Assembly (NCBI GenBank): GCA_005239865.1
Contig: SBBC01000013.1
Span: 1 to 36,758 of the forward strand
Reading direction: 5' to 3'
Length of the DNA stretch: 36,758 bases
DNA from: Candidatus Microgenomatus auricola
Lineage (GTDB): Bacteria > Patescibacteriota > Patescibacteriia > SBBC01
Shown here piece after piece: positions 7,735 to 14,585 of the stretch. The notes under the pieces are model-generated. The model made no database searches. It had not been told where the DNA came from and saw nothing but the letters and a program-made list of their open reading frames with translations. The first letter of the stretch is position 1; every line of letters starts with the position of its first letter. The position numbers were made by a program, and so were the translations under genes.

Positions 7735-7763
7735 TTGTCGAGCGCGAAAATCTCGGCTACACT
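7735..7763 (+). promoter_or_regulatory. sigma70-type promoter for dnaX
   Basis: TTGTCG (7735-7740), 17 nt, TACACT (7758-7763). ATG at 7774 is only 11 nt past the -10. Confidence 0.6.
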
Positions 7764-7773
7764 TATTGGTGGT

Positions 7774-9306
7774 ATGGCGACGCTTTACCGTAAATACCGG
7801 CCGCAACGGTTCAGTGAGTTGGTCGGGCAGGAGCACGTCCGGACGACGTTAACGTCGGAACTGGCCAGCGGAAAAATCACCCACGCCTATCTGTTTGTTG
7901 GTCCGCGCGGAATCGGGAAGACCACGACTGCCCGGTTATTGGCGAAAGCTCTTAATTGCTCAAACCGGAAAGGCGCCGAGCCGTGCAACCGTTGCACCTC
8001 GTGCACCGCCATGCAGCAAGGGCGGTCTCTGGACTTGGTGGAAATTGACGCCGCCTCGCATACCCAGGTTGACCACGTGCGCGAGAACATCCTGCCAGCC
8101 GCCCGGACGGCACCGGCGCTCGGGCAGTACAAGGTTTTTATCATTGACGAAGTCCACATGCTCTCGGCCTCGGCCTTCAGCGCCCTCTTGAAGATGCTGG
8201 AGGAACCGCCGGCCCACGTGGTCTTCATCCTGGCGACGACCGAGCCCCACCGCGTTCCCGAAACCATCGTGTCGCGTTGTCAACGCTTCGATTTCCACCG
8301 GATTGCGCCGACGGACATCGTCCATCGGTTGACGACGCTCGTCAGCCAGGAGAAGCTGCGCGCTGAAACGTTAGTGCTCGAACGGATTGCGCGATTGGCG
8401 CAAGGCTCGCTGCGTGACGCGGAAGGCATGCTCGGGCAACTGATCGGACTCGGAGAATCAACCTTGACGCACGAACTCGCTGATTTGGTGCTGCCGCGCT
8501 CAAACGTGACCACCGCTTTTGAGCTGATCGCTACGATTCTGGCGAAAGACGCGGTCAAAGGCATCGAACTCGTCCAGCGACTCGTTGACGACGGGATGCA
8601 TCTCGGGCATTTTCTCCACGAGTGCGTTGAGACGTCCCGGCTGCTGTTGCTGGCTAAGATTGGATCAACCGAAGGGTTGGCGGCTTTAGCCCCGGCTGAA
8701 CGGAAAACCGCCGAACAGTTGACGGAGCGTGGAACGACGCTGGATTTTCGTCTGATGCTCGAGGCCTTTCTGCGACGTGAACGGGAGGAGCGTTCGGTCA
8801 GCATTCCCCAACTGCCGCTGGAGCTGGCGATCGTCGAATTGACTGCCGCAACGGTTGTCGGATCGTTTCCGCCGATGCCGCCAGCGCGTCCGGCACGCCC
8901 CCAGAAGCCGAAAACTTCCGCCTGGCGCACCACCAGCAAAGGATCGGGCCAGGGTCTGGCCGAATGGCCAAAGGTGCTGGAGTTGGTGCGACAGTCGAAT
9001 CCATCGGTCGCGGTACTCTTGAAATCAGCCACGCCGCATGGTATAGTCAACGATGTCTTTCGGTTGTCGTTTCCCTTCCCGTTTCATTGCGAACGGGTGC
9101 TTGAAGTTAAAAACCGGAGGGTAGTTGAATCCTCGCTCGGTGTGGTGTTTGGTCGTCAGCTGCGAATTGAGGCGGTCTTGAATGAACCGTCGCCGGACGC
9201 GCAACGTCGCCCAGCTGGTCGGTCTGCGCTTCCGGATGAGGTGTGGCAACAAGCCTTGACGGCCTTCGGCGGTGAATCCACCGAAGGCAGAGAAAGCGTC
9301 TCCTAG
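7774..9306 (+). CDS. dnaX: DNA polymerase III subunit gamma/tau
   Basis: YRKYRPQRFSELVGQEHV, Walker A GPRGIGKTTTARLLAKALNC, Cys4 zinc module CNRCTSCTAM, IIDEVHMLSASAFSALLKMLEEPP, ATTEPHRVPETIVSRCQRF. Confidence 0.95.
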   Translation: MATLYRKYRPQRFSELVGQEHVRTTLTSELASGKITHAYLFVGPRGIGKTTTARLLAKALNCSNRKGAEPCNRCTSCTAMQQGRSLDLVEIDAASHTQVDHVRENILPAARTAPALGQYKVFIIDEVHMLSASAFSALLKMLEEPPAHVVFILATTEPHRVPETIVSRCQRFDFHRIAPTDIVHRLTTLVSQEKLRAETLVLERIARLAQGSLRDAEGMLGQLIGLGESTLTHELADLVLPRSNVTTAFELIATILAKDAVKGIELVQRLVDDGMHLGHFLHECVETSRLLLLAKIGSTEGLAALAPAERKTAEQLTERGTTLDFRLMLEAFLRREREERSVSIPQLPLELAIVELTAATVVGSFPPMPPARPARPQKPKTSAWRTTSKGSGQGLAEWPKVLELVRQSNPSVAVLLKSATPHGIVNDVFRLSFPFPFHCERVLEVKNRRVVESSLGVVFGRQLRIEAVLNEPSPDAQRRPAGRSALPDEVWQQALTAFGGESTEGRESVS

Positions 9307-9374
9307 GATGAGACGGGAACGCCGAGAAAATCGAGTTTCTTCAAAGGACTTATGATTCCGGGATCGTCTAATGG

Positions 9375-9403
9375 CCCCGCACCGGGCTTCGCTCGGTACG
9401 GGG
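9375..9403 (+). repeat. GC-rich hairpin A in outer tRNA D-loop
   Basis: CCCCGCACCGGGC-TTC-GCTCGGTACGGGG, 13 paired positions with one C/A mismatch, between TAATGG and (CAGG)TAG of the D-loop. Confidence 0.75.
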
Positions 9404-9416
9404 CAGGTAGGACGCC

Positions 9417-9445
9417 CCCCCCGCACCACCCTTGGGTGCGGGGGG
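9417..9445 (+). repeat. GC-rich hairpin B near the 5' side of the outer anticodon arm
   Basis: CCCCCCGCACC (9417-9427) / GGTGCGGGGGG (9435-9445), 11 bp perfect. Confidence 0.8.
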
Positions 9446-9503
9446 CCCGCTTCGCCTGGCGCCAAGAAACTTTTTACCTAACCGTCAGGCTTGGCCGCGT
9501 TGT

Positions 9504-9574
9504 TCCGGGATCGTCTAATGGTAGGACGCCAGGTTCTGGCCCTGGTAATCTAGGTTCGAATCCTGGTCCCGGAG
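9504..9574 (+). tRNA. tRNA-Gln (anticodon CUG), CCA not encoded
   Basis: Full cloverleaf by hand. Acceptor TCCGGGA/TCCCGGA, D stem GTC/GAC, anticodon arm CCAGG-TTCTGGC-CCTGG, T arm CTAGG-TTCGAAT-CCTGG, discriminator G, followed by CAAC. Confidence 0.95.
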
Positions 9575-9664
9575 CAACGCGGCTCAAGTCTAGGGCATGA
9601 TTACCAATTCCGAAAAAGCGAAGCAGGCGGGGCGGGCTGGCCCTGGTAATCGGGGTTCGCTTGT

Positions 9665-9706
9665 CCAGCACCCGACTCCGAGCCCATCGAGGAGGAGTGG
9701 TGCTGG
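9665..9706 (+). repeat. hairpin C inserted in outer tRNA T-loop
   Basis: CCAGCAC (9665-9671) / GTGCTGG (9700-9706) with an inner ACTCC/GGAGT helix, between TTCG and AGT of the T-loop. Confidence 0.7.
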
Positions 9707-9821
9707 GAGTCCCTGTCCCGGAGCCACAAGATCTTTGGCATTTTTTGGGATGGGCAGTCAAGCTGGGGTGGATCGGGATGGAACTTCATTCGGTCAAGCT
9801 GACCTTGACTGAACGTCGCGT

Positions 9822-10586
9822 ATGTATTTGTTGACGCGGCTGGTACCTTTACTGACAGCCATCATCCTAATGGTTGGAGGCGAGTTTGCGCTGGCTCAGC
9901 CGAGGTACTTCATTCACGTCTTCATCACTATGACGCTCCTCATCCTGGGTGCCGGTTTGTTCGTGCTTCGTCGAAGCTCGCGAAGCGAAAAAATTATCTT
10001 AACGGTTTCGCCGATGGTGTTTCTGGCTGGCAGTGCGTTTGTGATGTTTTTTTTATCGCCGTCGTGGCTGATTCACCCGGCGCTGGTGATTGTCGGTTTG
10101 AGCGGCTGGATCTACTTCGAAGAGCTCTATCGCTACGCCTTTGAGCCGGAACGGTACCATCAACATGCGATTGAGCACCTGACGAGCTACTTTGGCATCA
10201 TCGCTTTGGCTGGCAGCATGGCTGGGATTTTTGCCCTCCGTATTTTTCTGGATGTGCGTTTGATCTATCTTCTCCCCATTACCATGGTCGTCGCCACGCT
10301 GATCAGCGGTAGCATTTTCTCCGTCCTGCCTTTGTCGCGGGTCTCGCTGATTTCATCGGCGGTGGTCTTCGGTCTCCTGGCGACCGAAATGACCTGGGCC
10401 GTTCATTTCTTACCAACCCACTACTGGGTGGACAGTTTGATTGTGACGATCCCTTTTTACGTCGCCCTGCACCTGGTTCGTCATGAGCTCAACGGGACGT
10501 TGAACCGCGAGCTCATTCAACGCTATGCTGCCATTGGTGTGGTCGGATTGAGCGTCGTGCTGTTGACGGCACAATGGGTGGTGTGA
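9822..10586 (+). CDS. polytopic membrane protein, hypothetical
   Basis: 254 aa with several strongly hydrophobic segments. Ends 2 nt before the next gene. Confidence 0.75.
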   Translation: MYLLTRLVPLLTAIILMVGGEFALAQPRYFIHVFITMTLLILGAGLFVLRRSSRSEKIILTVSPMVFLAGSAFVMFFLSPSWLIHPALVIVGLSGWIYFEELYRYAFEPERYHQHAIEHLTSYFGIIALAGSMAGIFALRIFLDVRLIYLLPITMVVATLISGSIFSVLPLSRVSLISSAVVFGLLATEMTWAVHFLPTHYWVDSLIVTIPFYVALHLVRHELNGTLNRELIQRYAAIGVVGLSVVLLTAQWVV

Positions 10587-10587
10587 G

Positions 10588-11817
10588 ATGAAGCCGCGCC
10601 CGACCCCCACCTCCCCGAAACAGCAAACTCTCGGCCGTGAGCTCGAGGAGCTGTATCGAGTAGCGCCGACGATCACACGTCCGCAGCACCTCTCGGCCTC
10701 CGCGATCGTGGCGTTGGTGGCCGGCGTCATCGTCGTCACCCTGTCCGCGTTCGTTGGGCTACGCGGGCTGGCCGAGCGCTTCCCCGACATCAGGATTTTG
10801 CAATATTTTCGATCCGAAATTCTCCCGGGCGAACGGATCGTTATCCGTGAGGAGCGCCAAAACGCGAATACGACCAACATCGACATCGAGCGGGTCAAAC
10901 GGTCATTGGGCGTGCTTCTCAAACCATCACCGAGCGGTCCGTCGACACCAGACGATCGCCTCGGATTGGTGGTGTTTCTCTCCAATGACGGGGTTGGCCT
11001 GACGCTCAAGGCGAATCTCCCGAAAAAACCCGCGGCGGTCATTGGTCAAGCCAGCGGCGAACGGGTAAAGATTCTGAAGCAAACGGCTGATTCGGCCACA
11101 CCGCTTTCGCTCTTTAAAGTCGATGGCCAGACCGTCTCCATGTCGTTTGCCGATCTCGAACGTCTCGTTCCCGGAGACGAGGTGGTGGTGGTTCGCCATG
11201 ATCCGTTCAATGGCGGATTAGGGGTGTTGCACGTCCGGATTGCCTCGACGCGCGACCGCCTCTTGGCCGGTTCGTCACTTTCGGCGTTGCTCGAATCGTC
11301 CGAGGTGCTGACCAGGCGGATCCGACTTGATCGGACGCTTGATCCGACCTGGGACGGCGCGGCTGTGATTGATCGTGACGCCAGATTGATCGGAATCGTG
11401 GATGCCTCAAGCACCCGTGGTGGACAGGCCACGGTCGTGCCGATTGAGCCGCTCCGGAACCAATTGAGTGGGTTTACGCGTCACGGAGAGATTCGACGCC
11501 CCCTGCTCGGGGTCAGCTACCTCGACCTGGCCTTCGCCGCCCCGCTTCCAGACCGGCCGTCGAAGGGCGCCTATCTTATGGCGGGAGAGCAAGGCAAGCC
11601 GCCAGCGGTTCTGCCTCGTTCGCCAGCGGCGGTGGCCGGATTGCGGCCGGAAGATGTCATCACCGGGGTCGAAGACGTCGTCGTGACTGACGCTCGCTCA
11701 CTGTCCGAGTTGCTGTTGTCGTACGATCCCGGTTCGAAGCTCGTGGTTCACATCCTTCGCAACCGTTCGCCATTGGATATCACGGTGACGCTCGGCGAGG
11801 CAACCGCTGGTAGTTAA
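10588..11817 (+). CDS. HtrA/DegP-like membrane-anchored PDZ protein, protease domain apparently degenerate
   Basis: N-terminal TM segment, trypsin-like beta pattern ending WDGAAVIDRDARLIGIVDASS where GNSGGPL would be expected, and a C-terminal PDZ (GAYLMAGEQGKPPAVLPRSPAAVAGLRPEDVITGVEDVVV). Confidence 0.65.
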   Translation: MKPRPTPTSPKQQTLGRELEELYRVAPTITRPQHLSASAIVALVAGVIVVTLSAFVGLRGLAERFPDIRILQYFRSEILPGERIVIREERQNANTTNIDIERVKRSLGVLLKPSPSGPSTPDDRLGLVVFLSNDGVGLTLKANLPKKPAAVIGQASGERVKILKQTADSATPLSLFKVDGQTVSMSFADLERLVPGDEVVVVRHDPFNGGLGVLHVRIASTRDRLLAGSSLSALLESSEVLTRRIRLDRTLDPTWDGAAVIDRDARLIGIVDASSTRGGQATVVPIEPLRNQLSGFTRHGEIRRPLLGVSYLDLAFAAPLPDRPSKGAYLMAGEQGKPPAVLPRSPAAVAGLRPEDVITGVEDVVVTDARSLSELLLSYDPGSKLVVHILRNRSPLDITVTLGEATAGS

Positions 11818-14585
11818 TGTTCATGACCAAACTTTTTTTTATCACGGTGGTGGTCGGCGCGAGCGGGCTATTCGGGTTGACTGTTCGGGCGGAAACAATG
11901 CCGGGTGAACTGATTGTGACCTTTCGCGAGCCGACGTCCGGAATTTTTCGCCAGGGTTCAGCGACGCGGGTACTCGGCCTCAAGGGAAGAGAAAAACTTC
12001 AACCGCTTTCTGGCCAGACTTTTTTGGTTCGGACTGAATCGGAGAACGTCGTTGACCTAGCGCAACGGCTTCGGCGTAACGTCCGCGTCGAACAGGTCCA
12101 GCCAAACTACGTCTACCACGCCTTGTTTGTACCGAATGACCCATCGTATCGCTACCAGTGGAATTTCGAGACGGTCAGGGCGCCAGCTGGCTGGGATTTT
12201 GACGCGACTGCGCCGTTGTATGGAGGCGACGCGAGCATTTTGGTCGCGGTGCTCGACACCGGTGCCGCCTATGAGGATTTTGGTGATTTTAAAAAAGCAC
12301 CGGATTTCGCAGGCACGACTTTCGTGGCCGGCCAGGACTTCGTCAACAATGACACCCATCCGAATGACGATAATGGACACGGTACGCACGTAACCATGAC
12401 GATTGCCGAGTCGACCAACAACGGGCTGGCGGCCGCTGGTCTGGCCTTTGCGAGTTCGATCATGCCCATCAAGGTGCTCGACGGCAGCGGCCTCGGATCA
12501 ACCGCCACCATTGCCGCCGGCGTCGACTTCGCCCGGCTGAACGGGGCGAAGGTCATAAACTTGAGCTTGGGCGGCACGAACGACGACCCGCTGCTCCACC
12601 AGTCCATCCAAAATGCCGTCAACGCTGGCATTGTCGTGGTGGCTGCCACCGGGAACGATGGTGCGGGTTCGGTCTACTACCCAGCGCGGTACGATGAGGT
12701 CATTGCCGTTGGCGCCACGCGATACGACAATCTCGTAACCACGTATTCAAACTTTGGAACCGGAATCGACCTGGTTGCGCCGGGCGGGGATCTTGATGTT
12801 GACCAGAACGGCGATGGCCAACCGGACGGAATCGTCCAACAGACCTGTGAAACGAAGGCCTGCGCAACGTTTAACGATTTCTTTTATGAAGGCACGTCGC
12901 AAGCCGCTCCCCACGTGTCGGCCACCGCCTCACTCCTGCTGGCGGCCGGTGTACAGGGCGCGAATGTAAAAACTGTGTTGGAAGGGTCAGCCAAAGATCT
13001 TGGCGCCGGTGGCTACGATTCGACCTATGGCTATGGACTGCTCGACATTAGCGCGGCCTTGACACTCGGACTCAACGATAAAAACCCGCCCACCGGATCA
13101 ATCACGATCAACAACGGATCGCCCTATACCAACGTCGCCACCGTCACGATCAACGTGAAGGCAAGTGATCCGGAAGGAACGGGGATTTTAATGTCATTTT
13201 CCAACGACGGAATATCGTATTCTGCATGGCAAACGTTGGCGGCCACGAAAAGCGCTTGGGACCTAACCACGTTCGGCGGCTCATCGTTGGAGGGTCCCCG
13301 GACGGTCTACGCCAGATTCAAGGACGCCGCTGGTAACGCCTCGTCAGCGGTTAGCGCCCAAGTCACACTTGATCAAACACCGCCCCCCGCACCGACCCTC
13401 GACGTCCACGCGCCACCGCCGAATGATCAGGTCAAACTTCTTTCCGGGGTAGCCACCTCGGTCAAGGACTTAGTCGCCGCATGGAATGAGCCGAGCGATA
13501 ACTTGAGCGGCATTGCCGGTTATCGCCTTGATTTCACGCCGCAATCCGAGCCGGATTTCTCCGTCATCCCGGTGACTACCGAACGAACCTACGCCGCCGC
13601 GACACAGTCCTCTTCACGCGTCCTTTACCTTCATGTGGTGGCCGTTGATCAAGCTGGTAATGTTTCAGCCACCCGGACGTTCACCTATGTCTATCAGTTG
13701 CTCCGGGTGGTGGCCGGAACGCGATCGCAAGGCGCCGTGGTTTCTTTCTATACACCAACCGGTTCGCTGAAGACAAAACTCCAACCGTTAGGGAAAGCCT
13801 CACTCGCCGGGGTCCGCGTCGCGGTCATGACGTACGAACTCGGCCGGCCGGATGCCCTCCTCGTTGGTTCTGGTTCCGGCCAGACGATCGTGAAAGTGGT
13901 TTCGGCCGATGGCCAGGAACTCTCCGCCTTCAAGCCCTATGGCGCTAGAGCGCGTCATGGAGTCAATGTCGCGGCTGGCGATTTTCAAGGCGACGGTCGA
14001 TCCGAGATCGCCGTCGCGCCGCAATCCGGTGCCCTTCCGATTCGGATATTTACGAACACGGGAGAGTTCATCCGCGAGTTTTTCCCCTTCGGGAAAAAGT
14101 ACAGCGGTGGTGTTTCTGTCTCAACCGGCGACGTTGATGGCGATAGCACTCAAGAACTGATTGTCAGTCAAATGGTGGACAAGCCCCTAGTTAGGATTTT
14201 CAGCGCCGGCGGTCAACGGCTTAAAGAATTCCGGGCCTTTCCAAAAGGAAAAAACTTCGGTATCCACGTCGCCAGTGGCGACGTGGATGGAGATGGGCGA
14301 GACGAGATTGTCGCCTCACCCGTGGCGGGCAGTTCGCAGGTTGTGATTCTCATGGCGAACGGGAAAAGGGTTAGCACCTTGACGGCCTTCAGTAAAAAGT
14401 ACCGCGGCGGAATTAATGTCAGCACCGGCGACGTCGACGGCGACGGCCGTGACGAGGTCATGACCGTACCAGTCGAAGGATATCCGAAGGTGCAGCTCTT
14501 TACTGGCCAGGGAAAATTTCAAAAAAGTTTCTACGCCATCGGCAAGAGTTTTCGCGGCGGCGTGCAATTGACGACGATTCGATGA
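11817..14585 (+). CDS. secreted S8 (subtilisin-like) serine protease with C-terminal FG-GAP/VCBS-like repeats
   Basis: Signal-like N-terminus; catalytic blocks VAVLDTG, NGHGTHV and GTSQAAPHVSA; C-terminal repeats of (S/A)TGDVDGDGRDE(I/V). Confidence 0.9.
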   Translation: MFMTKLFFITVVVGASGLFGLTVRAETMPGELIVTFREPTSGIFRQGSATRVLGLKGREKLQPLSGQTFLVRTESENVVDLAQRLRRNVRVEQVQPNYVYHALFVPNDPSYRYQWNFETVRAPAGWDFDATAPLYGGDASILVAVLDTGAAYEDFGDFKKAPDFAGTTFVAGQDFVNNDTHPNDDNGHGTHVTMTIAESTNNGLAAAGLAFASSIMPIKVLDGSGLGSTATIAAGVDFARLNGAKVINLSLGGTNDDPLLHQSIQNAVNAGIVVVAATGNDGAGSVYYPARYDEVIAVGATRYDNLVTTYSNFGTGIDLVAPGGDLDVDQNGDGQPDGIVQQTCETKACATFNDFFYEGTSQAAPHVSATASLLLAAGVQGANVKTVLEGSAKDLGAGGYDSTYGYGLLDISAALTLGLNDKNPPTGSITINNGSPYTNVATVTINVKASDPEGTGILMSFSNDGISYSAWQTLAATKSAWDLTTFGGSSLEGPRTVYARFKDAAGNASSAVSAQVTLDQTPPPAPTLDVHAPPPNDQVKLLSGVATSVKDLVAAWNEPSDNLSGIAGYRLDFTPQSEPDFSVIPVTTERTYAAATQSSSRVLYLHVVAVDQAGNVSATRTFTYVYQLLRVVAGTRSQGAVVSFYTPTGSLKTKLQPLGKASLAGVRVAVMTYELGRPDALLVGSGSGQTIVKVVSADGQELSAFKPYGARARHGVNVAAGDFQGDGRSEIAVAPQSGALPIRIFTNTGEFIREFFPFGKKYSGGVSVSTGDVDGDSTQELIVSQMVDKPLVRIFSAGGQRLKEFRAFPKGKNFGIHVASGDVDGDGRDEIVASPVAGSSQVVILMANGKRVSTLTAFSKKYRGGINVSTGDVDGDGRDEVMTVPVEGYPKVQLFTGQGKFQKSFYAIGKSFRGGVQLTTIR

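Follow-up and report, generated by a model that had tools for sequence, protein, structure and literature searches.

Nested tRNA-Gln genes in a Patescibacteria genome point to a possible selfish element of the 'cut and rescue' kind with tRNA genes as targets

How does a complete tRNA gene come to lie between the two halves of another tRNA gene for the same amino acid? The question is raised by a stretch of 36,758 nt (the window) on a 119-kb contig of the genome of Candidatus Microgenomatus auricola (1.0 Mb, 99% complete, 58 contigs). The original prediction for this locus offered two answers, namely a new tRNA-scaffolded or tRNA-precursor RNA, or the relic of a tRNA gene invaded by its own duplicate and by palindromic elements. 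We consider it probable that the native tRNA-Gln(CUG) was split at its anticodon by a unit that carried a replacement tRNA, that belongs to a wider class of GIY-YIG-plus-tRNA units of the Patescibacteria, and that would have arrived by homing. In the following, G000 denotes the host genome and G001 to G004 members of the same family, while L and C numbers denote loci and contigs.

The nested anatomy can be read directly from the window, with all parts on the forward strand. The upstream landmark is dnaX, coding for DNA polymerase III gamma/tau (7735-9306; PF13177, E = 1.3e-42). The outer, native tRNA-Gln begins at 9357-9374 with nt 1-18 (acceptor 5' strand, D-stem 5' strand and start of the D-loop), and this repeat, TCCGGGATCGTCTAATGG, recurs at 9504-9521 as originally predicted; with a chance expectation of about 1e-8 (by arithmetic) for an exact 18-mer repeat within 400 bp, it is not a chance match. 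A palindromic hairpin within the outer D-loop (CCCCGCACC...GGTACGGGGCA; 9375-9405; fold z = -4.2) follows, and a related insert occupies the identical point of the outer D-loop in G003. After this hairpin of 31-33 nt the outer 5' half resumes, which had been missed before, and continues from nt 17/19 to about nt 27 with the remaining D-arm and the first bases of the anticodon stem (GGTAGGACGCC; 9406-9416; repeat family D4, 100%). The outer nt 28-32 or thereabouts, the 5' strand of the anticodon stem, are absent, and another hairpin stands in their place (CCCCCCGCACC/GGTGCGGGGGG; 9417-9445; inverted repeat I3, 11 bp, 100%). At L009 and L010 the equivalent hairpin is followed by AGGTTC/AGGCTC, bases that are gone in the window.

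The insertion is enclosed by a left clamp (GCCCGCTTCGCCTGG...; 9445-9461), common to units in G005 and G009, and a right clamp (GCGAAGCAGGCGGGGCGGG; 9618-9636), which together form inverted repeat I5. Between them lies the intact inner tRNA-Gln(CUG), the replacement copy (9504-9574), which was recovered as predicted by ARAGORN (9504-9575, anticodon ctg) and Rfam (9504-9574, 60 bits) and is the only sequence at the locus that either program scored as a tRNA, the outer copy being unscored. Its leader arm (9494-9503) is complementary to its trailer arm (9575-9583; inverted repeat I2, 17 bp, 94%) and lengthens the acceptor stem. The inner tRNA is separated from the outer pieces by 88 nt and 62 nt, and it is the sole tRNA-Gln found in the G000 assembly. 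The outer 3' half starts with CTGGCCCTGGTAATC, present at 9536 and 9637 as noted before, and comprises nt 33-55 (anticodon 3' part, variable loop, T-stem 5' strand CGGGG and T-loop start; 9637-9659; repeat D1), with a T-stem as in the native genes of G001 and G004. A hairpin of 48 nt (9660-9707) sits within the outer T-loop, between TTCG (ending at 9659) and AGT (starting at 9708), and nt 56-71 plus CCA follow (9708-9726; repeat D3), so that the outer copy runs on to TCCCGGAG-CCA and ends at 9726, again as predicted. Downstream lies a gene for a DUF5656 protein (9822-10586; PF18900, E = 3.2e-7), found in the same order in G002, G003 and G004. Further along, the window holds a large subtilase-family protease with FG-GAP repeats (11817-14585) beside a PDZ protein and a GtrA protein, which is an ordinary surface-protein neighbourhood.

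Could the outer copy still serve as a tRNA, or as part of a larger RNA? The 373-nt RNA is predicted to fold far more stably than its shuffles (z = -6.9), and the fold contains the acceptor stem claimed for the two outer halves, a clamp helix that closes the insertion, and an inner tRNA whose stem is greatly lengthened. The halves do not join into a complete functional tRNA, as nt 28-32 are missing and the D- and T-loops carry inserts; with no possible anticodon arm and no normal T-loop, the outer tRNA is dead as a tRNA. We therefore regard as very unlikely a functional nested precursor, in which the clamps would unite the outer halves after RNase P/Z had freed the inner tRNA and would yield a split, ligated or scaffold RNA. 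The stability of the nested fold would suit such a precursor, as would the clamps of several loci, which are long and free of mismatches (18 bp at tRNA-Phe, 16 bp in L008/L057), and the largely preserved outer stems of young loci, among them tRNA-Phe. Against it speak the defects of the window's outer copy, the fact that some hairpins elsewhere lie in D- and anticodon stems, and the clamps themselves, which, however striking at single loci, are not clearly commoner in nested tRNAs; leader/trailer clamps do not significantly distinguish nested tRNAs in G000 (P = 0.067), and the signal is missing from G015. Rfam cmscan of the window and 13 nested loci returned tRNA only and no group I or II intron. 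With half of the anticodon stem gone, hairpins in the D- and T-loops and no match to an intron family, the idea of a new scaffold or precursor RNA found no support.

The alleles of relatives point to an insertion. Most members of the class have tRNA-Gln next after dnaX, and the site is empty in G001, G002 and G004, where one intact tRNA-Gln lies 5-11 bp after dnaX; in G002 and G004 the DUF5656 gene, a downstream landmark of the empty sites, and a PDZ protein gene follow. The same place is occupied in G000 and G003. Since the outer 5' half is the first feature after dnaX in G000, 50 bp on, the outer tRNA occupies the place of the native gene. Elsewhere in the class the dnaX site is empty in, e.g., G014, G016, G018, G019 and G024, and occupied in G007, in G023 with a GIY-YIG gene inside, and in G013 with a 3' fragment only. 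A replacement insertion combines an interrupted target, with uninterrupted alleles at the same locus in relatives, and an insert that supplies a working copy of the gene; both are present here, the latter as the intact inner tRNA-Gln. An assembly artefact is unlikely, given that G003:C20 has the same arrangement at the same locus.

The next question is which of the two tRNAs is native. The outer and inner T-stems (CGGGG/CCCTG vs CTAGG/CCTGG) differ by two double, pair-preserving changes, so that simple copying of the inner tRNA does not account for the outer halves. At the positions compared, the latter show 95.5% identity to the native tRNA of G004, with which they share the T-stem CGGGG/CCCTG; the inner tRNA has its best match in the nested inner tRNA of G003 (98.5% identity) and its next ones outside the family. 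The relic proposed originally, a tRNA gene invaded and joined by palindromes, therefore holds in outline, but the invader was probably not the gene's own duplicate, because it is the outer halves, and not the inner tRNA, that match the native tRNA-Gln of sister genera at the same locus. The tRNA-Gln(UUG) of G004 shows the same polarity: its outer halves share 95.7% identity with the native gene of G003, and nothing sampled exceeds 87% identity to its inner tRNA. In the tRNA-Gln(UUG) of G009, both outer halves belong to an acceptor stem TCCGGGA/TCCCGGA, vs TCGGGGA/CCCCCGA in the inner tRNA; outer halves that share an acceptor stem unlike the inner one, as in G009 and in the G004 tRNA-Gln(UUG), are halves of one gene. 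A foreign replacement within a native, displaced gene is thus indicated at two loci, with moderate confidence given the short sequences compared (about 66 nt of tRNA). The outer anticodon of the G004 tRNA-Gln(UUG) now reads TTA, which also argues against a functional precursor. If it were expressed, this displaced tRNA-Gln (L057, on G004:C40) would read UAA stop codons.

A tandem duplication of tRNA-Gln followed by decay of opposite ends, with the outer pieces derived from two dead copies and no insertion at all, is an unlikely but not negligible alternative. It would account for the one-sided repeated pieces seen in neighbours (several 5' pieces at L055, several partial copies at L031), and for the absence of any difference between the window's outer and inner tRNA over nt 1-27. 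It does not agree with the outer T-stem, which is that of the native gene at the locus, nor with the shared non-inner acceptor stems in G009 and in the G004 tRNA-Gln(UUG). Across the two-sided cases, moreover, the outer pieces overlap less often than do pairs formed by shuffling (4 vs 6.7, P = 0.03). The halves abut within 3 nt in 7 of 21 (P = 0.054), which speaks against duplication but is also a low share for the insertion reading. Nuclease ORFs between the pieces also speak against duplication and for the insertion of a unit into a native gene.

Such breaks are not confined to tRNA-Gln, a genome-wide pattern that, like the tie to GIY-YIG genes, was beyond the view of the original prediction. 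In G000, 16 of the 39 tRNAs have a partial self-copy on the same strand within 500 bp, and none (0 of 39) has one on the opposite strand; in G015, a relative assembled in two contigs, the count is 11 of 48 on the same strand and 0 on the opposite one. The isotypes with flanking partial copies include Phe, Thr, Pro, Asn, Arg, Leu, Lys, Met, Tyr and Gly. The tRNA-Phe locus retains a nearly complete outer gene, in which TTCGA and TTC of the T-loop directly flank the insertion and a perfect helix of 18 bp closes it. Partial copies beside intact genes were seen in G000 at L117, L118, L123, L127, L132, L135, L137, L142 and L149. G015, which has half-copies of the same kind, holds intact tRNAs for every amino acid, so the outer copies are not needed, a further point against a functional precursor. 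Functional split tRNAs were considered for G000, where Asp, Ala(UGC) and Gln(UUG) have no intact copy, and rejected; as a direct search of G000 gave no convincing pieces for Asp either, an assembly gap is likelier than a split tRNA. GIY-YIG/tRNA units often lie at contig ends (G000:C35, G000:C49, G013:C2, G048:C2 and G006:C68), a position that may help to explain the tRNAs missing from G000.

What might have carried these replacements? Small GIY-YIG ORFs (PF01541, E = 1e-12 to 2e-15) are present in every sampled genome, with up to 13 per genome in the class. They are about 80-100 aa long, with little beyond the catalytic domain, and their closest solved relatives are UPF0213 proteins; NCBIfam holds no name for them. 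The GIY-YIG homing enzymes that have been studied are larger, and the small size, which leaves little room for target recognition, counts against the homing reading. Of 30 GIY-YIG loci picked irrespective of tRNAs (L067-L096), 12 have a same-strand tRNA no more than 150 nt away, when about 0.5 would be expected (estimated from tRNA density). Units that appear young follow a plan in which a displaced 5' part of a tRNA with a palindrome is followed by 7-11 more tRNA bases, the GIY-YIG ORF and a complete tRNA. Plans of this 5'-displaced kind with a GIY-YIG ORF were found for Glu in G017 and G013, Trp in G015, Leu in G040 and Gln in G023, and the mirror plan, from complete tRNA through GIY-YIG to a displaced 3' part, for Val in G036 and Leu in G047. 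Two-sided nesting with a nuclease, as in the window's geometry, occurs at tRNA-Gln in G004, G015 and G028, and at tRNA-Cys in G076, a member of another class of the phylum. At L101, L103, L104 and L057 the GIY-YIG frames extend into the start of the complete tRNA; those of L103 and L104 reach some 20 nt into the tRNA, where the TAA/TAG of its D-loop (GTCTAA/GTCTAG) probably provides the stop.

The nuclease lineages also follow the tRNAs. When each nuclease is paired with its closest GIY-YIG relative in another genome, the tRNA isotypes of the two agree in 18 of 41 cases, vs 5.7 in shuffles (P = 0.0002), as target specificity would predict. The unit in the window contains no ORF with a GIY-YIG signature, a state shared by about half of the nested tRNA-Gln units, and this weighs against the homing reading; the window's unit is thus non-autonomous or decayed, and we class it as a nuclease-less relative or relic without autonomy.

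Integrases, too, frequently insert at tRNA genes and rebuild them from carried att sequence, and one-sided cases with a complete tRNA plus a 3' fragment look alike. Remnants of tRNA-targeting integrative elements of the tyrosine-integrase type, deleted down to their ends, are nevertheless a very improbable source of the units described here, which are short (often 200-400 bp) and whose internal ORF is GIY-YIG and not an integrase. Nor does a single integration leave displaced 5' fragments or two-sided nesting with a whole extra tRNA. The 88 nt and 62 nt between the inner tRNA and the displaced fragments in the window hold no integrase gene, and the nested units of relatives hold GIY-YIG ORFs.

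The hairpins require separate consideration. The palindromes beside breaks form hairpins with a median fold z of -3.4, and inspection by eye found a palindrome, often of the same kinds, close to the break in nearly every displaced piece so inspected. The CCTGCCTGCCGGCAGGCAGG palindrome recurs in displaced tRNA pieces at L053, L077 and L108, and palindromes of the type CCCCGnACC...GGTnCGGGG also recur within displaced pieces; the insert at 9375-9405 is one of these recurrent palindromes. A confinement of the hairpins to loops was rejected, as a stricter count showed enrichment in the D-arm, with some in D- and anticodon stems. L118 (on G000:C33) holds, downstream of tRNA-Lys(UUU), a Lys-like copy with D-loop and anticodon inserts, the latter being one hairpin nested in the loop of a second. 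Homing by itself does not explain why displaced halves contain hairpins, and this counts against a unit that homes and rescues. Their near ubiquity could suggest that the palindromic elements are the real invaders, and the GIY-YIG genes and extra tRNAs later passengers of insertion-tolerant loci. We consider this the least probable of the alternatives, because passengers would not track tRNA isotype as the GIY-YIG lineages do, and because hairpins alone would inactivate an essential tRNA, so that a rescue copy must precede or accompany them.

We hypothesize the following sequence of events for the replacement of a native tRNA by a carried one. The nuclease would cut its target tRNA gene, and recombinational repair would copy the nuclease together with a linked rescue tRNA into the cut, splitting the old gene. 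The carried tRNA, or a half that rebuilds one, would restore function and keep the cell alive, and the inner tRNA would be immune to cutting. The dead native halves would then decay and gather palindromes. Isotype tracking lends indirect support to cutting and self-copying by the endonuclease, and the recurrence of break and replacement, often with a small nuclease gene, suggests that a selfish element of the 'cut and rescue' kind exists in nature, with tRNA genes as its targets. We somewhat favour the broader view that an undescribed minimal selfish family, consisting of a GIY-YIG nuclease of ~80 aa and a rescue tRNA, replaces essential tRNA genes isotype by isotype; it would be a natural counterpart of home-and-rescue drives and a main cause of the turnover of tRNA genes in these genomes.

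If this is true, a function would be at hand for many of the small GIY-YIG genes that abound in Patescibacteria, essential tRNA genes would be repeatedly replaceable by foreign ones through a selfish element, and cut-and-rescue drive would have a natural example. The tRNA halves in such genomes would be insertion scars and not split functional tRNAs, tRNA genes would here be unreliable as markers of descent, and the units may add to assembly breaks and apparently missing tRNAs in Patescibacteria genomes.

In the open-access literature, preprints excluded, on GIY-YIG and tRNA in CPR, Parcubacteria or Patescibacteria, we found no description of this arrangement, and its parts have counterparts in several known systems. 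Group I introns occur in bacterial tRNA genes, often with homing endonucleases (PMC3984707), and tRNA introns of Patescibacteria are the subject of a 2025 preprint, as cited in PMC12641178. The units described here resemble them in inserting into tRNA genes, with the anticodon region among the sites, and in their association with homing endonucleases, but no intron ribozyme was found and the interrupted tRNA is replaced instead of spliced. For CPR rRNA-gene insertions, PMC11270868 reports GIY-YIG proteins only in insertions that are not group I or II introns. The phylum, the invasion of structural RNA genes and the GIY-YIG proteins are shared with our units; those insertions hit rRNA, however, the text of that paper mentions no tRNA, and no account of a rescue copy was found there.

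The nearest precedents are SegB of phage T4 and the mobile ORFs (mORFs) of fungal mitochondria. SegB of phages T4 and T6 is a free-standing GIY-YIG homing endonuclease encoded in a phage tRNA cluster that cuts within tRNA genes (PMC2988022, PMC13096335). RAWTSGAAC, the motif reported for this enzyme, corresponds on the opposite strand to GTTCSAWTY, the consensus of the T-loop (PMC13096335), and the T-loop is one of the break points seen here. SegB, too, is encoded beside tRNA genes, but it sits between them, splits none, has no nested rescue tRNA and belongs to a phage and not to a bacterial chromosome. The fungal mitochondrial mORFs replace the 3' end of a gene, as in atp6 of Allomyces and Glomus and also in atp9, cox2 and nad3 (PMC3630166). 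As in our units, an endonuclease ORF (LAGLIDADG, or GIY-YIG in atp9) enters an essential gene together with a foreign working segment, and the native segment is left displaced and dead (PMC3630166). The mORFs act on the C-terminal part of mitochondrial protein genes, whereas the units described here act on bacterial tRNA genes of many isotypes, can supply a whole tRNA and commonly have no nuclease. Endonuclease insertions that carry a replacement are thus a known class, and it is probably this class that is seen here, in bacterial tRNA genes.
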